Notes under the pieces: model-generated | Database searches by the model: none | What the model was told of the DNA's origin: nothing | What the model saw: only the letters and a program-made list of their open reading frames with translations | Made by a program: the position numbers and the translations under genes | In this document: one piece after another, positions 2,877-24,544 of the stretch | Layout: the number at the start of each line of letters is the position of its first letter | Position numbering within the stretch: position 1 is the stretch's first letter | Assembly: GCA_946803715.1 (NCBI GenBank) | Contig: CAMPET010000037.1 | Span: forward strand, 162,956-190,297 | Length of the DNA stretch: 27,342 nt | Direction of reading: 5' to 3' | Origin: Beroe ovata | Taxonomy: Eukaryota > Ctenophora > Nuda > Beroida > Beroidae

Positions 2877-3611
2877 TTAATCCGATCCCATAACCTCTGA
2901 CATGCCATTGATCCTGGACACACAATTAGAGGAATAAGACGGTGGCAATTCTTCTCCATGAGGATCTGCATTAGCCGCTAAAATTCCTGGAACAACATTG
3001 TTGTGTCTGAGAACAATATTAGTGCTGCTGCTGCTGGCACAAGTTGTGCTATCTGCACTCTGTCGGGCACTGGCTGGGTCCTGACTGAAATCCTTGATTG
3101 CATCTGAGTAAGAGGGAGGTGTACTCATCACCCCCTCTGTATAAAGTGGTGGTGGTGTGGCATGATAAATCTGGTGATCTCCCGAGTTGTCTACTGCCCC
3201 TGCATTTACCACAACATCGTCTGAAGCTGATCTCTCTCTGGACATTCTCATGAGTCTGGATGCGAAGCATATAAACATGAGCATGACACCGATGGCAATG
3301 AGAACACCCACAATGATGCTCAGGGAGATATCCGACTGTCTCATGCAGAGACACACTCCTTCACCCGTCAAGTCGTCACTGATGCACTTGTAAATGGGAC
3401 AGTCACAGGTCACTCCTCGACCAGGCTGCCCAGATTCACAGACTGGTTGCCCCATTGAGGTTGTGTTGCACGAGGCATATCTCTGATTACAGAAGATCCA
3501 GCTTGAGTAAGTGCTATCGTAGCAGCGGTCACTGTAGCAGTCGTAGCCTGTGCTGATGTGTAGCAAGACAAGCAGCAGAAGCGGGGTGGCAGGGAGCCAT
3601 TTATAGTTCAT
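2877..3611 (-). CDS. Type I membrane protein with Cys-rich ectodomain and three PPxY motifs (WBP1/VOPP1/shisa-like architecture)
   Basis: A 244-residue protein in one exon. Residues 1-22 are a signal peptide (hydrophobic LLLLVLLHIS, likely cut after STG). The short ectodomain (about 23-94) holds ten cysteines at 25, 30, 41, 48, 58, 69, 71, 76, 87 and 89. A transmembrane helix spans about 96-117, followed by a basic stop-transfer patch (RLMRMSRER) and a Ser-rich tail with three PPxY motifs: PPLY 154-157, PPSY 165-168 and PPSY 223-226. In WBP1, VOPP1 and shisa-type proteins such motifs bind WW domains, often of Nedd4-type ubiquitin ligases, linking the protein to endosomal sorting. The specific family is not certain. 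A tttttctgcag acceptor just upstream of the ATG suggests an intron in the 5' leader. The gene is head to head with the alpha2-delta gene. Confidence 0.8.
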   Translation of the reverse strand: MNYKWLPATPLLLLVLLHISTGYDCYSDRCYDSTYSSWIFCNQRYASCNTTSMGQPVCESGQPGRGVTCDCPIYKCISDDLTGEGVCLCMRQSDISLSIIVGVLIAIGVMLMFICFASRLMRMSRERSASDDVVVNAGAVDNSGDHQIYHATPPPLYTEGVMSTPPSYSDAIKDFSQDPASARQSADSTTCASSSSTNIVLRHNNVVPGILAANADPHGEELPPSYSSNCVSRINGMSEVMGSD

Positions 3612-4340
3612 GCCCCTACCTGCAGAAAAATTGAGTCATTTTCGACTCCCGATCATTTTCAATCCTTCTCTTTTAAATCATCATAATTGTTAAATCACTA
3701 CCTATTTTAATTCTTAGTAATCTTGTCTACCGTACAAGAATTGCCTTGAATTGAGGAATATGACCAGACATAGAAATGATCATAGGCTTAACATAACTAC
3801 CTATATCACAAATCTTTTATATCACTACCTACTCAAAATTGTCATATGTCAAAATATTCGCCATATGATGATATTTATACGATTCAGACGATTTTCATTT
3901 TCAGACAAATAGCGCTGTAATTAGCCATAATCATTGTATCTGACTATTAATTACTCGGCAATTAGGCTCTAAATATCATCACGAGCCTGACCATGTAAAC
4001 ATAATATTATGTGACCTACCTTACTGAGAGCTGTTTTAATTGCTGTTGAGCATCAAAATATTCCAGTATTTACAGCGCCGCGGTGGTAGGAATATGGTCA
4101 GACCTGAGCTCATTACACCTTCATTGTTAGCCGTGATTGATAGTAATTGGTTACTCTGTTTTTGCTTGTGATGTTCTACTGACTACTTGCCACAATGCTT
4201 GTTCATACTCAAATACGACAACATATTTGCATCGGAATTGTGAATAGTAGGAAAATAGCAATGTGCAAAATATGAAAAAGTATTACACAGACATAGTTGT
4301 TGAAAACTCTATATCATTTTTCTTCAATTGATTATTGCAG
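3612..4340. promoter_or_regulatory. Head-to-head intergenic region, probable shared promoter
   Basis: About 0.7 kb separates the 5' ends of the minus-strand PPxY gene and the plus-strand alpha2-delta gene. It is AT-rich, with repeated TACCTA words (for example near 3701, 3802 and 3825), except for a small GC-rich patch around 4073-4088 (CAGCGCCGCGGTGG). The minus-strand context CAGTAAG followed by gtaggt near 4018-4027 could be the donor of a 5' untranslated exon of the PPxY gene. No TATA box is obvious. A bidirectional promoter is inference from the arrangement. Confidence 0.35.
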
Positions 4341-7400: not shown

Positions 7401-9646
7401 TAGGAGAGATGTCAGCGGCTGATATTGAAAATACCATAGTTTCACGGGGATCCGGTATGGTGGAAGGTGACTGTATCTACCATTTCAGTCGCTACCTACA
7501 GGTTTTATTGAGACACAAGAAGGATTACAGATTACTGTGCCGGAATATTAGCTGCCGTTCAATATGATGTTCAATCAATGCAATGTAACTTCAGCGTGGG
7601 AGAGAATTTTTCATGAAGATGCAGTTTCACTTCAATGCTTTGGACGGATTTCCATTCTTCATCGTTCTTGCTGTTCCTTCAGCGTTTTCCTATGAGATTG
7701 AAACAACAAAGGATATCACAGATATACTTCTTCTACTGCAAGAACTTCTGGTGTCAGGGTCGAGGCAACAGTTAGATGACGGTGTAAGCAGTTCTTTCTC
7801 AGGATGGTTTGGAACTTCAAAGAATTCTAACAAGGATACAGAAAGGTTCTTAATTTGAATAGGCTGTTGAGTAGTTGAATTTCCTTGTGTTTGACATTTC
7901 ACTCACTTGCTTGAACAACAGGTATAGTAAGTACGTCCTGAATGAAACAGCTGTTCATTACTCCGTTGCTAATGATGTTGTTTTTAAATCATGGAAGTTT
8001 GAATCAAGGGTCAGCAATACGGTGAGCCGTTAGCCTGAAGAGAAGCTACATTTGAACAAAATATCATTGTACCTAGAGTGTACTTCATATGCTAATAATT
8101 TATATTCATGATTCCAGGTCATACCAAAGATGATTTATGCTCCATCTGGGTTACTGCTTTTCAACCATGAAGAATGGCTTGATATACCTGAGAATTCCCA
8201 TATATTCATTGAAAATGACAGACTGATTGCGTCGCTGGAAGCAACAAATCTGCTTACTATGAGTCCACTTCGTAACAGCTCAAAGTCGGGAGGGTCTTAT
8301 CTCCTGACGAAGACAATTGAGCTTGAAAATGGCGAGTGGAAAATGCCTTATTGTGACATCTTATTGTTCTCGTGTCTTTTGGTATCAGTTCCATGAATCT
8401 TTCATCTTTCAGAGACACCAGCAACACCAGCAGTGATTGGATTTGAGCTATTCTATGAAAACCTTCGACAAATAATCATTCTGGGATGTGAGTTATTCAT
8501 CTGATTGCAAACGGTACCGCTGTGTGGTCGAACCATCCCCAATATTTCTTATTTTTGATATCTGAACAGCTGTTTAAAAGTGGATTTAGTCGTATATTCT
8601 ATATGCTTATATGAGATAGTTAGATGGTCATTGTCTAGAGGAATTCTTGATCAGGAATTCTTGATATTTCAAGGACAAATTATATCCATTATCCATCAAT
8701 AACATTTTATACCGCTATTCCCCCTAGCAAACATAATTATTACATCCCAGGGATGCCTCAGGAGAATCATGTCAAAAGGGTAACTGTCATGCTCGTTGAT
8801 GACAAGGGATTTATAATATTTATCGAACCGATCAGCAGTGAAATCAATTTTGAAGGCAACCACCTAACCAATGCATTCCCAGAGGTAATTATTGCAGCTA
8901 CGTCATGTGGAACGTGTGTCACATTGATACCTTATGCAATTTGCATTCTGAATAATAACAGAATCTGGCCTCAATCGAACTGACACGAGTTAAAGTCTTT
9001 TTAATAGGTACTTCTTCAGTTGATGCAAGTTCTGCTGAAAAAGTCGGTATTTGTCATAGATACCTTCAACAACTGCTTGACGACCTGTAAATATCGGAAG
9101 CTAAAAGCAGTGGAGTCTTCAGCGGTGAGGTGTTCATATCGGGATATCTTATCATTGATAAACGGATCTGTGCATCTATCCAGGATCATGCTTCTCATAC
9201 AGAGTATCATATCATTTGTGTCAGGACATTCTCAGTTAGGTGCCACCATCAGTTTGAAGGATCAAAACAAGAATTACTTTAGGTGCTGCAAGACTTACAG
9301 CATTTTCAAACTGAGCTCTGACAATGTAACCGACCATGCACTTGAGATCAAGTGTGGCGATTGTACAAAGAGATTTTTCGTTTCACCTGTCAAGAACACT
9401 AATCTGTTGTTAGTTACAGATGTTGAGCCGGATTGTATCTGTGGTTCCAATAGGAAGTCCTCAGATCACCTTGGGATTATCAATGAAACTCACATTCACA
9501 ATGTTTCTTTTGGTGAGCTGTCATACAAGACTCTGAGTTGTGCCAACAATATCAATATAGATATTGCATGTAACAAGGCTATAATTAAGAGTACAGCGAA
9601 TTACGTTTGGGCCTTGTTATTTGCATGCACATTTCTCTTTGAATGA
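4406..9646 (+). CDS. Voltage-gated calcium channel alpha2-delta-type auxiliary subunit, 19 coding exons
   Basis: Coding exons: 4406-4669, 4849-4934, 5020-5137, 5239-5385, 5466-5563, 5787-5934, 6152-6269, 6373-6494, 6592-6903, 7006-7080, 7161-7284, 7359-7454, 7502-7536, 7595-7845, 7922-8021, 8118-8331, 8413-8487, 8751-8884, 9008-9646. They sum to 3156 bases, or 1051 residues, a normal length for the family. Order: signal peptide (1-20); VWA_N region with W-x-Y-F and G-V-L-R-L-F-P near 175-195; F-Q-P-W-Y (217-221); VWA domain with an intact MIDAS, D236-L-S238-G-S240; VFSDG later in the same domain; MACNNRG; Cache-like segments (GIAGFDIKIDG, VIYHPRLEPLPQL, PFFIVLAVP); Cys-rich C-terminus ending in a hydrophobic tail (YVWALLFACTFLFE). 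In known family members the MIDAS is needed for channel trafficking and the tail is replaced by a GPI anchor. Exon 13 and the GC donor after exon 16 are the weak joints. The acceptor at 4340 suggests a leader intron. CACHD1-type proteins are the alternative, but they lack the MIDAS. Confidence 0.85.
8332..8412 (+). other. Putative GC-AG intron in the alpha2-delta gene
   Basis: The exon starting at 8118 stays open past its natural end. Every GT donor tried gives a stop codon, the wrong frame, or a 33-base intron. A GC donor (AATG, then gcgagt) joined to ctttcag at 8412 restores the frame and gives TIELENETPATPAVIGFE, which matches the flow of alpha2-delta proteins in this region. Confidence 0.5.
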
Positions 9647-11425: not shown

Positions 11426-13432
11426 TTAGAAAACCTTGATAGTTTCGCCGTCATCAGGTCCCGCTAGTTGTTCTTCCTCCAGTCCTGGATTGTGGGAGTT
11501 ACATTATAATCGGGGGGAATCTAAATTCTAACTTGATAACTTGATAACTATAGATAAACTCGATATCTTGAGCAGCTAGTTTAGTGTTATGATCACTTTA
11601 TGAAAACCAATCCGATTATTTGTAATGTTGGAAAGTTACTCACCGTCACAAACTTCACATATACTTTTGTACTCGGTTTTGGGTATGCAGACCATGCCAA
11701 TCGACCATTTACTGCCCTCTGGCGGCGTGCCTTGTGACGTGAAATCAAGTGAAGCTCTGTTGCCATCCAAAACGGTGTTGAATGGTTTCTTGCTTCCGTG
11801 AATGCCCATCTGACAAAATGGTAGATAATGCAGTAGTGAGTTGTCAAGTGAGGAAAGTGAATTATTTGCTTTAATGCAGAAAATTAATTATTGCATCCTT
11901 TCGTAATTACCTCGAAATTCTGTTGGTGAATCTTGATTGTGTCTCCGGGATTCATTGAAAAGTCTAGTTGCATACACAGATGTATATCACAATCCCCTTC
12001 AAAATCGATTATGTAACTGCAGTGAGTGTTGGGACTGTATTGCCCTTCAGCATATCTGTAAGAAACACGTTATCAAGAACTGAGAAGTATATTGATATAA
12101 GTTAACAAGGAGAACTCATTAATTTTTCATAATGATTAGCCCTTTCGGTCATATATTAGAGTATGAGTAATTTATCACGGCTGTTGCGGCTTATGAATGA
12201 GCAGAATTTCAATTTGATTCCAATCTACCCAGTACCTACCCGTGTGAGTATAGAACAATAGTTTGTCCAGATGTGGCGTTCAAGAAATAGCAGCATGAAA
12301 GTCCATCAGCGTCACCTGAGAAAGATGTTTTTGAGAAATTCGAAACGCAAATTCGTGATATTAGGGGAGGGCTTTCCCAGGGCTTTCTCTCTGTCTAGTC
12401 CGAGTTTATAAGGGGGAGGTTTCCTGAGAGCATTTAATTGCTGGAACAGTAATTTTCGTTTATCATTACGATCCAACCCACTGCACCTTTCAAAGTTTGG
12501 ATTTCGTAGTGATCCCGTATAAGTGTTTAGAAAGACGTTGGCTATAATGACCATTTATGTTTACCAATATCATGAACGGAAACATGTCTGCTGCCTTAGT
12601 CCAATCTCGACGTGAGCATCAATGTAGAGATTATATTTGAGGACTGTGTATGTCTGCCTCAGGGTTGGTGATCAAGATTCATATTAAGTGGGGAGTCCGG
12701 ACTATCAGCCAAGTGACAGCACCTTACATGATGTCTGATGGTTGCTGTCACTTGTGCTGGCTCCTGCAGTGACTTGCCTAGTCAACTTTTGAATCATACG
12801 CGACAGATCCGGATACATATTAAATGTCAGCTTTATATTAGTGACTGACTTCATGCTATAGGTAGAGAGTGGCGATATATCACTGCTGACTGCAATTTTC
12901 TGATAAGAAACTATAGGTAACACTCGATTACTCACAATTGTCCCACCCATACTCCGTCATTAATGGGGTTTCTCTCTTTTGGCACTGGAAGGCAATAGCT
13001 GCTCCGATCACCAGACTGCATAGAACGGCCAATCTGAAATAAATCAGTCTTGCGTCATTAATCTTGTACGTGTTTTAATGCATATGTACAGTTTTAGGAG
13101 ACGATCGGTCTTACATTATAGCGTACCCAGAACTCGGTATAACAACGAACTATTATATTTATAAAAAGGTAAAATATGGCATGCTCTTGATGACTTGATA
13201 ACTTTGATTGATATTGAATTGCCTAGGGGGGTAGGTACTGATGTATGAAAAGACTCAATGGTGCCAAAACTATTCTCAGTTGGTGCCATGGTATGTGCCA
13301 GTGATCATAGGTGCTAGGTATACTACAAGGCAGGTTATGGAACTGCTGACCCAACGAGTACCGAAGGCACGAGTTATGTCAGTAGTTATAACATGCTTAT
13401 GGTGCGGCACAAATTGACGTTCCTAGCTGCAT
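11426..13432 (-). CDS. Secreted CUB-like Cys-rich protein, long paralogue
   Basis: Exons in minus-strand order: 13432-13419, 13033-12936, 12889-12728, 12315-12240, 12055-11911, 11809-11644 and 11484-11426, giving 239 residues. All exons from 13033 down have good GT/AG signals and matching phases. The first (14 bases, MQLGT) rests on a weak gtcaat donor and is tentative. It completes a signal peptide, MQLGTLAVLCSLVIGAAIA, before FQCQKRE. A polar 80-residue segment follows, absent from the sister gene, and then the shared core: CCYFLN, CSYIIDFEGDCDIHLC, NPGDTIKIH, KWSIGMVC and CEVC. The spacing of C-x-Y-x-I, C-D-x-x-L-C, G-D-x-I-x-I and W-x-I resembles a divergent CUB domain, an extracellular binding fold. 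The acidic C-terminus GLEEEQLAGPDDGE parallels the sister's DLNEKAVLPESE. The ligand is unknown. Confidence 0.7.
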
Positions 13433-14818
13433 TTTCCGTGTCAAATGGGCAAATAACTGGCAATTTCACGCCTTCAAAGTGTTCATTGTCCAATGAGCGT
13501 CTCGGAATGAGAAATGCAGCGTGATTGATACGTTTGGTCATGTGGCTAAGTACTTTGATGTCATTGGCTATGGACCAAGGCAGGGAGCTTAAAGCGGTTT
13601 GCCAACTTATGGAGAACTGTATTTCATAGGTTGGCAGACCGGTTTTAAGATCATGAATTCTTCACTGAACTGTATTCCATAAGTATCGATTGCAAGCAAA
13701 GATTCCATGGACTTGATACTTGATTAGATTTTGTTTTGAATATTATCCTTGACTCAGGGCCGGATAAAGCAACTTTGGTTGAGATTCCGGAAGCTAGTTT
13801 AGATCTCGATCATACATAGCAGCTCTGATTAGCTATCAGCTATCACGTGACAGCTACCTGATCGTGACTGCTTCACTCGGTTACCGCGAGTGCAGACACT
13901 TCGGTGCCGTACACACTATCAAGCTCCTAATGGCACACAGTGCTACTGAGAAAAATCTTGGTAGTAAAATATCTAAATATTCATACCTACTGCATCACGC
14001 CATCACACATGTAATCCATACTATTTAACCATTTTGAAGAATATGCGATTTAGTGAACCTTTTCTATTTTCATGTTTGTATGAGCGATTGTGCAAGGGGG
14101 AGAGCGTGTAACACTGTGGCTACCTACCTGTTCATGGTGGCCTTTTTTCAGTTCAACAATCAAAATATCCGGGAAACTTTTTCTGCACTGACAAATACAA
14201 TGAGACGACAATCACTGGAAAACTATAGATGTAAAGTACATTGAACCATTAATGTAAACGTGTTGGAGAGGAAGGAGTCTCCTCACTGGGTGGTGTCTCT
14301 TTATGCTGTGTACAGGTGACGCCTATTCACGAGAAGTGTCACGTGATAAGTCACGTGATCACACAACTCCTCTCATTTTCATGAGATACGAAGTTGAAGT
14401 CCGGTGTAAGTCCTGAATTACAGCCCGTGTGGGTAAGAAAATGTAATTGTTGTTGAATTTTTCGGAAGCTTTGGTGTATGCAACTTTACAGTTAATCAGA
14501 TGGTTTGATGAGCGGTCACCTGACCACTCCACTCTCATAAAGCTTTATTCAACATAGGGGCATGGCAGTTTATACCTCTTCTGAGACGCACACCTATCTA
14601 CACCTTCATTACATTCTGTGTACATGACCCGATAGTGCTTCATTTTGAACCTTTATTTTATACATTTGTCTTTGCTTGTATAACCAAATCATAAGCAAGT
14701 CTTTTGGTGGATCTGAACAAGCAAGCACCATGCTTTCCTTCTTGTTTGGGTGAGTTGCAACTTTCATTACCAAAGCTTTTATAGAAGCTACCATTTAAAC
14801 CTGAGATTGACAGTTGTC
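13433..14818. promoter_or_regulatory. Divergent intergenic region of the CUB-like pair, with three CACGTG boxes
   Basis: About 1.4 kb lies between the 5' ends of the two CUB-like paralogues. It holds three CACGTG E-boxes: 13844-13849 (TATCACGTGACA), 14340-14345 and 14352-14357. The last two are TCACGTGA palindromes 12 bases apart. Such sites bind bHLH-zip factors of the USF/MITF/TFEB and Myc/Max type. No coding exon is evident; the 63-codon ORF at 14053-14244 has no supporting partner. Joint control of both genes is inference. Confidence 0.45.
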
Positions 14819-16007
14819 ATGTTTGTCATAACGTGTGTTTGTCATAACGTGTGCTAGGTGTTTTATTGTTTTTGACAATCTGACTACTGCACCTGCACCC
14901 AATTATAACAAAGATTCCTTTTAGAGCTGCTCTACTGGCATATGTGACAGCTCAAGATCACACTGTTGTTGAATACATTGGTATGTGGACTCCAATCAAT
15001 CAATCATTCATGTTTTAAACCTAAATGAAAGCTGTTCTAACACTGCCACACTTCATTATATGATATTCATTGGTTGCAGGTAATGCCAACTTCTGCTGTT
15101 ACTATTTCCACAACGAGTCAGTGTCGATGTTCAGCCATGACTACCACACCCACTATCAAACGGTTTGATAACCACTTGATGCTCCCAACATGATATTGAT
15201 ACCTGCAATGTCTAATGCTCTATAGCTGACAGTTCTCAGATTTTTGAATTAGCTATTAATCTCAGAACACCATGTGCCAATACAACATTGAGGTCACTGA
15301 ACCTCCTGAACTTGAAGATAACTGTGATCTGGCCTTGTGTGTCAAAAACCTGAATCTGGATGCTGGGGACTCAATCAGGATTCATCATAGAGACATATCG
15401 GTAAAAACCCTAGTTTTTACCAACCTTAGCTTGATAAAATTTTCCGGATTTTTTTGACAACTATAGGCCGGTTATTGTGAATAATGACATACTGTTAAGT
15501 GTCGAATCTCAGGTCGAATATCGTGGGGACAATACTCCAAAGTACCCGATAAGGATTTGGGATCACAAGGTCAGATGATTTGATTGATACCTATTTGATT
15601 GATACCTATTTGATTGATACCTATTTGGTTGATACCTATTTGATTGATACCTATTTGGTTAATACCTATTTTACTTTTTTTCAGTTAAAAATTATAATTC
15701 CAAGTTATTACCCGTGATACAAACTGCACCTCAGGCAAGTTTCTGGTTCCACAGTGACACTACCGACATCTCCCCAACTGCAAGTTGGGCAATATCTTAC
15801 ATCTGTCTTGAAAGAGGAGTCGACCATGATCTTTGCAATATCTGTGGAGGTTCATATTATATTAAGATGTCAACTATCTTACAATACGTTGTTTTAAACA
15901 TTTGATTTCTATTCTGACCCATTTTCAAATTCGTTATTTCAGATTTGAACGAAAAAGCAGTTCTGCCAGAGAGCGAAACATCCAAATGGTACAGAATCTG
16001 GTCTTAG
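14819..16007 (+). CDS. Secreted CUB-like Cys-rich protein, short paralogue
   Basis: Exons 14819-14832, 14925-14980, 15080-15162, 15266-15400, 15513-15569, 15735-15849 and 15943-16007 join in frame to 174 residues. The start MFVITAALLAYVTA reads as a signal peptide, cut before QDHTVVEY. The core shares its cysteine plan with the minus-strand neighbour: NANFCCYYFHNES, CQYNIEV, NCDLALCVKNLNLDAGDSIR, PIRIWDH, FWFHSD, ASWAISYICLE and CNICG, then an acidic-to-polar tail ending KWYRIWS. This fits a divergent single CUB domain (the paired Cys, a D-S-I-R-I strand, F-x-F-x-S-D, then W-x-I). It lacks the Ser/Thr-rich insert of its sister and has an extra intron at 15570. The 14-base first coding exon lies on a 16-base tandem duplication. 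The function is unknown, and it may act as an extracellular recognition protein. Confidence 0.72.
14821..14853. repeat. 16-base tandem duplication at the CUB-like start
   Basis: GTTTGTCATAACGTGT occurs twice in a row, from 14821. The copy next to the ATG gives the first coding exon and its donor; the second copy is wholly in the intron and offers a second, out-of-phase donor. Confidence 0.85.
15579..15668. repeat. Six-copy 15-base tandem repeat in an intron
   Basis: The unit TTTGATTGATACCTA is repeated six times, with the last copies diverging (GGTTGATACC, GGTTAATACC). It fills much of the intron 15570-15734 of the short CUB-like gene. Confidence 0.95.
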
Positions 16008-17780: not shown

Positions 17781-19472
17781 ATGGCTGACTCAGAAAGTAC
17801 ATTTCTCTTCCTTCTCATGATATTCCTGACAACATTTGGTTTGTTTGCAAACTCAGCGTCTTTGCTAAAGCTTTCTGTCAATCTACGACAAAGAACAAGG
17901 ATGACTAAGGCAGTCTCCCTTTTTTGCCTCCTTTCACTTACAGGTAATTATACTCTGAGGTTTATACACCCAATGAAATGCACCGGCCGTTCTTGAAACC
18001 ATGAATTCAAGCATGCTCCATGTCTTCCAGATTTTCTTTTCTGTGCCTTCATAAGTGCACCAATGACAATGGCTGTGCGAATGGGAAAAGATGCCCTTGG
18101 GCCATACTGTAACTTACACAGCGTCCTTTCAAGGTTAGCACATCATATTTGTGATCATACCTAGGTACCGGCAATGTTTTCCAGTCCAACTTAAAACTAA
18201 ACCATGTATGCTGACAACAGGATAACCATGAAACAGTTGCAATCTGCAGGTGGTTACTCTACTACCAGACCATCCTACTGGTAACCATTGGTTTCGATCG
18301 TGCATACCTCTCAATCAAGCCTCTCCGGTACCGGAAGCAGTATTCTCTGTGCCAAGCCCTCCTTTACACACTATCAGGTAGGACATAGAGCTATATTATG
18401 GGTGTAATAATAATTAGGTATAATTACTGGGGAATGGGGATGAGAAGTTGAACTGTTCAAGCATTAAGGCAATACTAGAAACCGATACAAAGTTACTCAT
18501 ATGTTGTAATTCAAATTGTATTTAATAAATATTGAATTTAATAAATGATGGGAAAATTGAGCGATGCATCTAGGCCAGTATCACGCTTGTTGCAAAAATT
18601 TATGTAATTGAAGTCATTAATTATACGTCCTACTGATACTGTCGTGGTACTGGCGTGATACCTACTGACCTTCACATATCGCTAAATACATATATCACTA
18701 ACGAATGCTCATAATATGCATAGCTACATTCGTATCCAAATTTTGGAAACGATTACGGATCACGTTTATTTAACCAAGTCTTCTCCAATGATACTGTTTT
18801 CCAGGAGTCACGGTAACTGGTGCAATATCACTCCCAAAGCTCAGTATTCAGTTTTTCCACTTCAATGGAAAGCTGGGCCAATGCATACTTCTAGGTTACA
18901 AGGAACCTAATTCCCTTGGCGCCATTACCCTCAACACAGCAGACAAGGTGTTCGGATTCGGTGGCATGCTACTTCTCCTCTGCTGCAACACCATGGTGGT
19001 GTTTGCTAACCAGGCTCGGCAGAGGAGAATAATGAAGTGCTCCAGGAAAACCCCACAAAGACTCACCATCCTCGCTATCACCGTCATGTTTGTTTTCGTG
19101 GTGTCGAGTCTACCCTACTTTATTGTGAAGATATTGTTCCACGTGAACCGTCAGCTGATGACACCACCCATGAATCCATGGATCAAGCGACTTGTTTTCA
19201 GCTCCTACTACCTCATGCACGTCAGTTCAAGTGTTAACCCTGTCCTATATGTGCTCCAGGGCAGAAACACGAAGCATCATTCGGGGGATAGTAATACGGG
19301 GTGTTTTGACACGGGTTTCCAGACGGTTTTCAACACTATCATTCAGAGTTACGGGGATCACTCTAAATTCTCGCAGGTCACCTCAAATCCAAACGACATT
19401 GCTTTAGTGAAATTGGGCTCATCATCCATTGTTATTGGGAGCAATAACGACCTAATAAATGATGCTGTGTGA
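17781..19472 (+). CDS. Rhodopsin-like (class A) GPCR, paralogue 1
   Basis: Four exons (17781-17943, 18031-18133, 18250-18377, 18805-19472) give 353 residues with seven hydrophobic segments. TM1 begins FLFLLMIFLTTFGLFANSAS, with its asparagine in GLFANSAS. TM2 is in exon 2, followed by YCNL at the usual position of the TM3-top cysteine. The TM3 end is D105-R106-A107, so the DRY motif reads DRA. The second extracellular loop has the partner cysteine (GQCILLGY). TM6 ends SSLPYF in place of CWxP, and TM7 has NPVLY at 276-280. It acts at the plasma membrane, presumably through a G protein. The ligand cannot be told from sequence and it is best called an orphan receptor. Its paralogue lies inverted at 22580-24544, with equal exon phases. 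Confidence 0.85.
18378..18804 (+). other. Intron 3 of GPCR 1, with a small inverted repeat
   Basis: The largest intron of this gene (427 bases). It contains an inverted GTATCACGC (near 18577) and GCGTGATAC (near 18653) about 80 bases apart. The 64-codon ORF at 18716-18910 is a frame shadow across the acceptor. Confidence 0.5.
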
Positions 19473-20154
19473 GACACACATTATATCATGGACAAATATT
19501 ATGGCTACACTTTCTTCCTGGTAAAGAAGGTGGAGCCGTACCACCTTAGTCCTATGTTTTCTTTGTGATCTTCTATCTACGCAGTGAAACACAATTATTG
19601 TGTGCCATCATAATTGTCTACATCTTGGAGACAACCGCGTACCTGTCTTTGTAGCAAGTCTTTATAGCTGCTTGTCGTAAATGGGTTGTCATGGTTACGA
19701 GAGGGCGAATGTGTCGTAGAGGACACGTGACTAATTTGTCAAGGTCACCATTGTGACACCCTTCGGTCACGTGATACAGGTAAACTCGATGGACAATGGT
19801 GATGTTTTGTCCTCGTTGATAAAAGAAGGTCATTGTTTTGAGTCGTGTAGCTTTTTGAGTTTAGGAAAAGGCGGAAACCTTCTCCCTGTTTCTCCCTGTG
19901 CTCCGCTGAGTTCGAATTTGCTGAATGTTATTAAGCACCTCTGAGTTTCATACTTTTAATTTCATGAGAATTTAATTTTGTTTTGCAGTTTTAAAACAAA
20001 AATCCGGATTTCGGGAGAGTTATATACTGCTCCTATTAAGAAGGCCCACTGAAATTCTCAAATGATGTCAAATAATGATTCCTTAGCAATCTATTAACAC
20101 AATATCTATCCCTCGATAAGAATAATAACAATTCTGTTCTTACCAGGGATCATA
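19473..20154. promoter_or_regulatory. Intergenic region before DD3-3, with two CACGTG boxes
   Basis: It holds the GPCR 1 3' flank and the DD3-3 5' flank. Two CACGTG boxes sit at 19724-19729 and 19768-19773, and a TTATATACT word lies near 20019. The context ttcttaccag, then GGATCATAATG, upstream of the ATG could be an acceptor for a leader intron. No coding exon is apparent; short ORFs here look random. Confidence 0.35.
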
Positions 20155-21897
20155 ATGAAGGTTCTGTTGGTGCTGGCATCCTTTGCGTTAGTTTATGGTG
20201 ATGTTTATCTCCAAGGACCAAGGGGGAGCAACAATCGACTAAACGAGGAAGGGAGGGAGAGAAACAATGCGAATCGGATGTTTGATTCCCAGAACAACAA
20301 CCGGGGCGGTTACAACCAGGGAAATCTCCACTATTACACAGGGTCTAAGGTGGAAATAGAGTGGACTAATCAGCACTCTTGCGGCAATCCTAACAACTTC
20401 TGTGAGCTTGTGGTACAATACATGTGTGGTGATCTGGTGCGGGATGGTATAACTACCAACAGGATACCAGACAACAGGTTCAAGTGTGACAAAGCTGACT
20501 GTAATAACGACATGGAGTATGGCATGCACGAGAACTATGAGTACTACAAGGAGTGTAGAGCACGACAGAGGAACAAGGGTCTGTACACAGCAGATCAGAA
20601 CATGCGGGAGGAAGCGTACAGCACGAGGCAGAACAATAACGGGAATCGGAACGGGTATGAGTGTCCGGAGGAGAGGGATTACTACCCGTACTGGCACCCT
20701 ACCCCCTGGAGGGATATCGTGGTGTTCACCAACGAGCCTGAGAGATGTGAATATTATAAGGAAGAGTCGCAAAACGTCAAGAACAAGGGATACTGCAAGT
20801 ATCCAGATAATTTCCTTGCGTTCAAAGAGGCCCTGGGTCAAAGTGCAAGCATGATGAATAACAAAGAAGATTGTGAGAATGCTCAAGTGGAGCATGGTGG
20901 AGAGTTAGTGACTCCGGAATGGGTTGAGATTGGTTCTTGGAATTCCGCTGCTCCAGACTGTCTGGCGTCGCCTTGGTCACGTGACAATCACCATGGTAAC
21001 AACAGAGATGGGTACATGAACACCTACTCCTGGACGGTACCCGATGATATTGTTCACAAGAACTGTGTTCTGAGACTCAGGTACAACATCACAGCTGGTG
21101 AGATGACGGAAAACAGATTCGATGAGCCCATCAACCACGAGTTCAATGCTGAGAAGGATGATGCACCGACCAAGATTGACATAGCGACTATGCATGGACT
21201 CCCAGTGGACAACGACAGAGGCTACTACTTCCAGCAGGACCCCGTTGTTGAGGTTTTCAACTTTGAAAACAAGGATCATAACAAAAAGCTTGACCTCGAA
21301 GTCACACTCAACACCAACCAGCATGGGCGAACATTTGAAGATCGTTCCCATGTATTCGAGATTCGAGAGAGGCCGGCCGATATCCCAGAGGATGCTGTGA
21401 TTCATAATCTGAACGTGAGGGGAAAACGTGGAAACATTGTGCAGACTTACCCGGGAGTGGAGTATGATTTCCAGCCCAACATTCTCACAATCAACGCAGG
21501 TGAATACATCCATGCACAATGGACGGGTGCTAACTCAAACCCAGCAAACAATGCTGGACAGGGACGGGCGAGGACAGATAGGAGCAATATGGTTCTGCTC
21601 AGGGAAAGAACTTGGCCGAGAGAGGGAGCTGAAGCAGAGGGAGGTGAAGGTTGCTATGCCTGCAACTACCCTGCCATACTCAGCGATGATATCAACTTCA
21701 TGGGTCTTAACAAGGAGGATCTCTTCACCCTGGCCTTCCATGATGTGTATGGAGACATAGAAGAACTGGATGACGCTTCGGCCTACTTCAATCTTGGACC
21801 TAGGAAGATCACTACAGCCGGAATATACCGCTATCTATGTACCAGGAACAACAATTTCACCAACAGGAGTCAGAAAGGACAGATACATGTCATGTAG
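20155..21897 (+). CDS. DD3-3 family secreted protein, intronless
   Basis: One uninterrupted 580-residue frame. Residues 1-15 are a signal peptide (KVLLVLASFALVYG), cut before DVYLQGPRGSNNRLNE. The mature start, with RNNANRMFDSQNN, GGYNQG, and YYTGSKVEIEWTNQHSCG, is the hallmark of the Dictyostelium DD3-3 family, which also has members in sponges, cnidarians and oomycetes. Later landmarks are YPYWHPTPWRDI, TYSWTVPDD, an Ig-like or cupredoxin-like C-terminal part (LTINAGEYIHAQWTG), and a conserved end, YRYLCTRNNNFTNRSQKG. It is Asn-, Asp- and Glu-rich, cysteine-containing, and lacks a membrane anchor, so it is likely extracellular. The biochemical role of the family is not known to me. Every other multi-residue gene nearby except the PPxY gene is split, and this gene is more GC-rich than its surroundings; a retrocopy or old transfer is possible but unproven. 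Confidence 0.88.
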   Translation: MKVLLVLASFALVYGDVYLQGPRGSNNRLNEEGRERNNANRMFDSQNNNRGGYNQGNLHYYTGSKVEIEWTNQHSCGNPNNFCELVVQYMCGDLVRDGITTNRIPDNRFKCDKADCNNDMEYGMHENYEYYKECRARQRNKGLYTADQNMREEAYSTRQNNNGNRNGYECPEERDYYPYWHPTPWRDIVVFTNEPERCEYYKEESQNVKNKGYCKYPDNFLAFKEALGQSASMMNNKEDCENAQVEHGGELVTPEWVEIGSWNSAAPDCLASPWSRDNHHGNNRDGYMNTYSWTVPDDIVHKNCVLRLRYNITAGEMTENRFDEPINHEFNAEKDDAPTKIDIATMHGLPVDNDRGYYFQQDPVVEVFNFENKDHNKKLDLEVTLNTNQHGRTFEDRSHVFEIRERPADIPEDAVIHNLNVRGKRGNIVQTYPGVEYDFQPNILTINAGEYIHAQWTGANSNPANNAGQGRARTDRSNMVLLRERTWPREGAEAEGGEGCYACNYPAILSDDINFMGLNKEDLFTLAFHDVYGDIEELDDASAYFNLGPRKITTAGIYRYLCTRNNNFTNRSQKGQIHVM

Positions 21898-22579: not shown

Positions 22580-24544
22580 TTAGTCAATGCTGGCGGGTCT
22601 CCCAGACTCTCTCCTGATTGAGGAGAAGTCCTGGAGTTGAATGTCGCCACCGGACCCAATGAAGTGTTCCCTCGAGGTACATCTCAATCTGACTTGGTTC
22701 TTTTTGCCTCTGTTTAATTTGCACTTCGGGTCCGGCAAGCACCCTAAACAGGTTGCTACACTCATGGAAGTTACTGTACTCATCCTCCTGCTGGTATAAA
22801 CTGTGGACCGCCTGAAGTTCCCGACAACACTCCTCAGTGGAGAGTCAAAATTGACCATGGAAGTCCTTAGCTTCCTGAGGCTGGAGATGCCACATCCCTG
22901 TAGCACGTAGAGAACTGGGTTGATAGTGGAGCTGACATGCATTAGATAGTAGGAGCTAATGATAGCTCTCCTGAACCATGTACATATGGGTTTCTGTACC
23001 AGCTCCTTGTCTGCATGGAATATAATCTTGGTGATGAAGTAGGGTAGGGCAGAGAGGACAAAAACTCCCATAACAGCCACTGCCACGACAGTCAACTTGT
23101 GTGCCCTGGCTAGTTTAGATCGGCGGATGGAAACCCTCCTCGACTTGACTATGACAAGAGTGTTGCAGCAGATTAGAAGGACCATTCCACCAAAACTAAC
23201 CACCTTATCCACCATGTTGAGCATTATGGAGAGGCCGGAGCTATGGTTTTTGTAGCCAAATAGAACACACTGTCCGATGATTTTGTTGAAGGAAAACACT
23301 TGGAGATAAAGTTTTGGAACTGATATGAATCCAGTGAGAGTAACACCTGAAAAACTCTGTTTTAGTATGGAATTTGAATAATTAATATGGTTACCCCATG
23401 GTTACTCGATGGTTACCTAACTAAAGTATCATCTTTAGTTATGGTGAGTAGCGTGACAGTTTTTATTTAGCATGGAAATCAGGGATAGTGCAAACGCACA
23501 TGCATGAGCGAATTTGTGATGCAGTCTGTCATCATATAATATAGTGTTACCTATCACGATGAAAAGAAGGAATGTCCTACGTGATCCATACTTTGTGTAC
23601 TGTAATGGGCGAAATGAGAGATAAGCTCTGTCGATACCGATTGTAACAAGAAGCACAGCTTGGAAATAGAGTAACCACCTGATCGATGAAAATTGCTGTC
23701 AATTTCATGATGGTCATCATTGCATGAGAACTTATTCATCGAACATCACTTTGATAAGTGTCGCGGTTTATGGGCAAATCAGTCAACGGAACATTGATGA
23801 AAACCATGCATTAGTATCTTAGGCAGATGATCATGATCATTAACATTAAAATTTGACCACATTGACATACCTCGAAATAACAGTGAGAAGGTTACAGTAT
23901 GATCCAAGTGCGGCTCTCCCGAGTTTGAGTGCTGCTGCCGTGGGTGCAGTTACAAACGCACAATAAACCAGATCTGAAACACACATAATTCAGGATAAGT
24001 GGAGAGAACCGAGTATATGACACCATTAACTCGGTAAATAATATCTCTAACATTATCAAACTCAGCCTCCGGCTTCAGTTAATTATGACACTGACGTAAC
24101 TTGCTCGGCTCGTGATGTAAGATGTGTTACTTCACAGTTCTCATTTAACCGTGATAGAGCACTATATTATCGAGCATGATATCTCACCCTAAGTTGCTAT
24201 CAAATTTTGCTAGCCGTCAAATCAAAATTTAGTATAAACTAAAGTTGAAAATATATGTATTCTGCCAGTTCTATTCTGATTACACTGCAATACTTCCAGT
24301 TTCAACTTCCTGATATTTTCAATTTCAGGTCAGCTGATATCACAGCACAGATCCAGATAATTACTGCGCATTACTTACCAGTGATAGCAAGCAAGCAGAA
24401 GAGAGTGAGTGCCTTTGTCATTCTCTTATGCGACTGGGATGTCAGTACAAGGCTGACGAGAGATGCCGTGTTTGCTATCAGTCCAAATCCAGACATGAGC
24501 ACCATCAACCCAAAGAGGAAAACTTCTTCGTGGAAAACAGCCAT
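22580..24544 (-). CDS. Rhodopsin-like (class A) GPCR, paralogue 2
   Basis: Exons in minus order are 24544-24379, 23973-23871, 23678-23551 and 23346-22580, giving 387 residues. Exons 2 and 3 are exactly as long as in paralogue 1 (103 and 128 bases), and all intron phases agree. Shared landmarks: RMTKALTLFCLL, YCNL (TM3-top cysteine), RWLLYFQAVLLVTIG then D106-R107-A108 in place of DRY, GQCVLFGYK (second-loop cysteine), SALPYFITKIIFH in TM6, and SSYYLMHVSSTINPVLYVLQ with NPVLY at 275-279. Its cytoplasmic tail is longer than in paralogue 1 and rich in Arg and Ser (RRSTVYTSRRMSTVTSMS), suggesting phosphorylation and arrestin control; that is inference. It is an orphan membrane receptor that faces DD3-3 and paralogue 1 tail to tail. 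Confidence 0.85.

Follow-up and report, generated by a model that had tools for sequence, protein, structure and literature searches.

Two spliced genes, here called A and B, lie head to head in a 27,342-nucleotide stretch of the genome of the ctenophore Beroe ovata (assembly GCA_946803715.1, contig CAMPET010000037.1, positions 162,956–190,297; hereafter, the window). Both are real genes, and their small products represent two old, apparently ctenophore-restricted families with a divergent CUB fold. Splicing of the window by script gave six exons and 183 amino acids for gene A (minus strand, 14135 to 11426) and seven exons and 176 amino acids for gene B (plus strand, 14730 to 16007), with frames free of stops and breaks and GT..AG borders in all 11 introns, five in gene A and six in gene B (Table 1). 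The genes point away from each other, their start codons are 594 bp apart, and no frame of at least 100 codons marks either of them. The first-pass annotation of this stretch had proposed such a divergent pair of spliced genes on opposite strands, and the arrangement was borne out by the two complete models, as was a common motif order of CCY[YF]F, C-x-Y-x-I, C-D-x-x-L-C, G-D-[ST]-I-[RK]-I, W-[AS]-I-x-x-[IV]-C and C-x-[IV]-C and the presence in both genes of a phase-2 intron within the putative signal peptide. The last exon, described as acidic in both copies, is so in gene A, whose final 25 residues carry a net charge of -7, and scarcely in gene B, with a net charge of -1. A 15-bp tandem repeat of 6.3 copies (window 15578-15671, plus strand) lies within intron 5 of gene B.

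Table 1. Exons of genes A and B and the interval between them (window coordinates)
Feature	Position	Strand	Content
Gene A exon 1	14128..14135	-	8 nt ATGAACAG; M-N-R start; phase-2 donor
Gene A exon 2	12936..13033	-	Remainder of putative signal peptide; Q-C, W-D-N; homology support
Gene A exon 3	12240..12315	-	Starts phase-1; CCYFLNAT (N-glycosylation sequon); CUB-like domain begins
Gene A exon 4	11911..12055	-	C-x-Y-x-I, C-D-x-x-L-C, GDTIKI
Gene A exon 5	11644..11809	-	CUB-like domain ends; W-S-I-x-x-V-C, C-E-V-C
Gene A exon 6	11426..11484	-	Acidic C-terminal tail and stop
Interval between start codons	14136..14729	.	594 bp; presumed shared or back-to-back promoters
Gene B exon 1	14730..14749	+	Putative signal peptide begins; phase-2 donor
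Gene B exon 2	14925..14980	+	Remainder of putative signal peptide; N-terminus
Gene B exon 3	15080..15162	+	Starts phase-1; CCYYFHNES (sequon); CUB-like domain begins
Gene B exon 4	15266..15400	+	C-Q-Y-N-I, C-D-L-A-L-C, GDSIRI
Gene B exon 5	15513..15569	+	VEYRGDNTPKYPIRIWDHK; following intron has no gene A counterpart
Gene B exon 6	15735..15849	+	F-x-S-D (candidate calcium ligand D125), W-A-I-x-Y-x-C, C-N-I-C
Gene B exon 7	15943..16007	+	C-terminal tail ends YRIWS, then stop

Gene A had initially been given seven coding exons, one of them an extra Ser/Thr-rich exon; only six are supported, and the seven-exon model was rejected because in all five long A homologues exon 2 is followed immediately by exon 3 and because an open cassette of the required length is common in simulation. 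Intron 2 does hold in-frame Ser/Thr-rich stretches, such as one of 162 nt at 12728-12889, and its longest open cassette measures 195 nt; a cassette of at least 162 nt was found in 52 of 200 simulated introns. The seven-exon form might nevertheless exist as an isoform that is rare or confined to the species. In the supported first exon, the ATG is preceded by GCCACC, and the donor (GTAGGTAG) scored highest among the three candidates retained from the 2.5 kb that precede exon 2; the two exons are separated by 1094 bp. The A homologues begin with MNS, MNK or MNR, in agreement with the MN.. start of this exon.

Spliced A, searched without exon 1, has homologues over 100% of its length with a best expectation value (E) of 4.1e-104; the five proteins found, one of which is a hypothetical protein of Mnemiopsis leidyi, are 45-82% identical to it in the search table. 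For spliced B, 10 homologues were identified, reaching over 98% of its length (best E 4.4e-81, 58-73% identity) and including one from Bolinopsis microptera. The Mnemiopsis A-type and Bolinopsis B-type proteins are the only named homologues from chromosome-scale sequence. A joint A and B profile returned 18 proteins at E<=10, all of them A-type or B-type and seven of them new and partial, in a search that was not exhaustive, since P0002-P0005 were in the query and were not returned. The organism names attached to the relatives are those of ctenophores only; the families are therefore probably lineage-specific, as had been suspected, and restricted to ctenophores as far as this search reaches.

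The partial homologues bear on the exon structure. In P0016-P0019, the resemblance to the B family covers B exon 4 from its first residue, which a Q immediately precedes, to its last; the Q is what a CAG acceptor read through would give, and P0016-P0018 continue with VR after the exon end, as a GTR donor would give. Some spliced B homologues (P0010-P0012) also carry a Q at this point, so that the Q alone proves nothing and the evidence lies in the loss of resemblance upstream. The resemblance of P0020 begins and ends at the borders of gene A exon 5, and that of P0021 ends there. P0016-P0021 appear to be unspliced genomic reads and, judged from these sequences, the exon borders of A and B are conserved.

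When 17 proteins were placed in an unrooted tree, six A-type and 11 B-type rows fell on opposite sides of a single split supported at 100/100; window A clusters with P0001 (93/69), and the B-type rows include window B. This split, together with the homologues of each type from other sources, indicates that the pair is not a recent local duplication, and for the proteins sampled the duplication would predate the split of Beroe ovata from the lineage of Mnemiopsis and Bolinopsis. That A and B are paralogues, as annotated, is upheld by the match between the two family alignments made without the window sequences (probability 98.9) and by cross-matches of the profiles, in which gene A exon 4 is hit by a B-type profile (E 1.5e-5) and gene B exon 4 by an A-type profile (E 0.0016). 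Further copies were sought exon by exon, so that one that has diverged might be overlooked: when the same genome was searched with the proteins, only the two genes came back (six of six places at E<=0.001 for B and five of five at E<=10 for A), and when profiles were scanned against the window, the 10 kb flanking it on each side and six fetched loci that contain other CUB matches, no match beyond A and B was better than E 0.1. A third copy was accordingly rejected.

Both genes have a phase-1 intron before the double cysteine (its position falls inside a gapped stretch of the alignment), a phase-0 intron that follows the G-D-x-I strand at an identical alignment column, and, within the second codon past the last cysteine of C-x-[IV]-C, a phase-1 intron. 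The CUB-like domain is thus flanked on both sides by phase-1 introns, as is usual for CUB modules. The intron reported in one copy and missing from its sister was located in gene B at K117|A118, with none in gene A; a second difference was found between codon 61 of A (phase 2) and the position before codon 54 of B (phase 0), about nine alignment columns apart.

By profile and predicted fold, the domain of A and B is a divergent rather than a canonical CUB, in line with the CUB-like nature first ascribed to it. The Pfam gathering score for CUB (PF00431), 21.4 bits, is passed by six of 15 homologues (P0001, P0002, P0004, P0007, P0008 and P0012), and the window proteins score 19.7 bits (A without exon 1), 19.6 bits (complete A) and 19.6 bits (B). 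The predicted models give the CUB beta-sandwich in a Foldseek fold comparison. Cupins, the CENP-C cupin, arabinanase and CBM6 were rejected as fold matches, with root-mean-square deviations mostly above 5 Å; V-set_2 and DUF6201 were weak Pfam matches of window B, well below their cut-offs, and an NCBIfam methyltransferase model matching one of the 15 homologues was taken as chance.

The cysteine plan departs from that of standard CUB domains, as had been noted for the double cysteine and the closing C-x-[IV]-C. A candidate first pair is formed by C43/C44 and C73 in A and by C31/C32 and C57 in B, at a spacing similar to the approximately 26 residues between C1 and C2 of CUB domains. The second canonical pair, composed of C3 before the Y-D strand and C4 in F-C-G, is absent; the proteins have instead CC, C-x4-C, C-x-[IV]-C and a cysteine that closes the last strand. 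The loss of one of the two disulphide pairs is also seen in some accepted CUB domains, and A and B are therefore filed as divergent CUB. Eight cysteines are common to window A, its five homologues and window B; the A-type rows have two further cysteines near the N-terminus (10 in each of the five homologues), and window A has one more within the putative signal peptide. Eight are present in nine of the 11 B-type rows, and P0013 lacks one cysteine of the CC pair.

Compared with the CUB domains of C1r/C1s, MASP-1/2, PCPE-1, TSG-6, Kremen and the neuropilins (PF00431), A and B share the predicted beta-sandwich, C-x-Y-x-I after the front cysteines, the G-D-x-I strand start and the phase-1 introns at both borders, and B retains calcium-site-like acids; they differ in consisting of a single domain without a protease, EGF or CCP partner and in the extra CC, C-x4-C and C-x-[IV]-C. 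Spermadhesins (1spp), which are secreted single-CUB proteins, are a remote fold match only, with 9% identity and a different cysteine plan. Other CUB matches in the same genome lie on contigs C1, C295, C270, C97 and C10, most of them over the Pfam cut-off; unlike A and B, the frames on C1 and C295 have canonical cysteines (C-x-Y-D, and F-C-G or L-C-G) and partner domains, and the A-type, B-type and joint profiles find no match better than E 0.1 in any frame of the six fetched CUB loci. At locus L009 (G000:C1:1137500-1143500), a 988-codon frame contains the zinc-protease-like motif HEIGHLLGLGHS, which we take to be matrixin-like, followed by three CUB matches, a metalloprotease-CUB architecture.

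Both proteins begin with a hydrophobic, signal-like segment, in keeping with the signal peptide annotated: the most hydrophobic 11-residue stretch starts at residue 6 in A (2.72) and at residue 1 in B (2.28), and the hydropathy maxima past residue 30 are 0.95 and 1.31, respectively. A and B are apparently secreted. Calcium-binding CUB domains hold the ion through three acids, which are Glu45, Asp53 and Asp98 in C1s, where the site grips a lysine of the partner (PMC4222235), and E89, D97 and D134 in Gpr126 (PMC6954182). By hidden Markov model (HMM), residues D88 and D125 of B align with two calcium-site acids, and D85, D88 and D125 are invariant in all 11 B-type rows. In the six A-type rows, the D88 column is always D, the D85 column is N or A, and the D125 column is a gap, G or S, neither of the latter two columns being acidic in any row. 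This pattern suggests a calcium-dependent binding site in B and either none or a different one in A, the least certain step of the interpretation.

The balance of the evidence tips modestly toward A and B being head-to-head ctenophore genes for small secreted glycoproteins that act as extracellular binding units, calcium-shaped in B and not in A. The gene structures, relatives, predicted CUB fold, cysteine plan and the two old paralogous families are computational results; secretion and the binding role are inferred from them. Each protein would consist of a signal peptide, a single divergent CUB beta-sandwich whose cysteine plan is non-standard, and a short tail, and would dock a partner via loops at one end of the sandwich. 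In B, a calcium ion held by the conserved acids D88, D125 and possibly D85 would give the site its shape, as happens in the CUB domains of C1s, MASP-1 and Gpr126; A may bind without calcium, or bind another partner, because it has an acid at only one of the three aligned positions. The 594-bp upstream interval that they share may turn on both genes together.

Several observations weigh against this interpretation. Window A and B both fall just below the Pfam CUB cut-off; six of the homologues are also below it and three more have no CUB match, so that nine of 15 fail; neither position of the second canonical disulphide is a cysteine when the A1 and A2 profiles are set against MASP-1 CUB2. The structure alignments hold 15 sequences, model confidence is moderate, and the signal peptides were judged by hydropathy alone. 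D85 is assigned as a calcium ligand of B by hand alignment only, the HMM placing K80 opposite the MASP-1 glutamate. Furthermore, an acid stands two or three columns past the D125 column in four of the six A-type rows, namely P0002-P0005 but neither window A nor P0001, and in P0004 an acid also lies two columns beyond the D85 column. These nearby acids in P0002-P0005 slightly lowered the probability given to the binding-unit interpretation and, by a trace, that of its extension to a two-part system (below), and slightly raised that of a structural role.

Such a role, in which A and B would be mainly disulphide-held parts of extracellular material such as mesoglea, mucus, egg coat or adhesive, with no specific soluble partner, is a serious if unlikely alternative. 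The added conserved cysteines, small size and apparent lineage restriction suit structural secretion, and ctenophore-specific genes are enriched among colloblast candidates in the passages available from PMC6278862; however, the proteins are not repetitive, tandem repeats in the gene region being confined to introns of B, the 58-73% identity of the B-type homologues is not expected of a fast-evolving coat, and only two copies were found in the genome. It is improbable that one or both proteins are secreted signalling ligands with their own cell-surface receptor, used as a pair: a compact single domain, a signal-like start and conservation would fit, and the head-to-head layout would allow co-expression, but no receptor is known. 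Quite improbable is a ctenophore-only two-part recognition system in which A and B, co-expressed from their common upstream DNA, would act together through a calcium-independent and a calcium-dependent CUB site, respectively, as a ligand or adaptor pair without counterpart in other animals. Finally, chance splicing of non-coding DNA or gene decay, to which the lack of long frames might point, can be dismissed as extremely improbable in view of the strongly matching homologues (E 4.1e-104 and 4.4e-81), which are continuous proteins in other sources, the partial homologues that match the exon borders, and the unbroken frames.

The CUB domain is a frequent component of the binding proteins that animals secrete, and the ctenophores are a very early branch of the animal tree. 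Secreted proteins specific to this lineage are candidate components of its unique tissues, and A and B, with their unusual cysteine plan, are two conserved genes open to testing; reading the sequence alone evidently suffices to find split genes that lack a long open frame. The names of the two homologue records were absent from the literature searched, and the family is not described in the passages available from PMC11797021, PMC6278862 and PMC11184263, although other papers could hold a description.

Elsewhere in the window, searches for RNA families and tRNA genes each returned none. Two frames of the rhodopsin-family G-protein-coupled receptors, both over the 7tm_1 cut-off, lie in opposite orientation (18792-19472, plus strand; 22580-23401, minus strand) and are 54% identical over 155 residues, forming a second inverted paralogue pair. 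Between them, an uninterrupted 599-codon frame (20098-21897, plus strand) has a signal-like start, judged by eye, and no Pfam or PDB match over 20155-21894; it presumably resembles the Dictyostelium DD3-3 protein. A 212-codon frame at 9008-9646 (plus strand), perhaps one exon of a larger gene, weakly matches the neuronal calcium-channel alpha2 region (PF08473, 19.7 bits against a cut-off of 22), and a 252-codon cysteine-rich frame at 2877-3635 (minus strand), with one hydrophobic segment by eye, weakly matches Commissureless (21.6 bits against a cut-off of 27).
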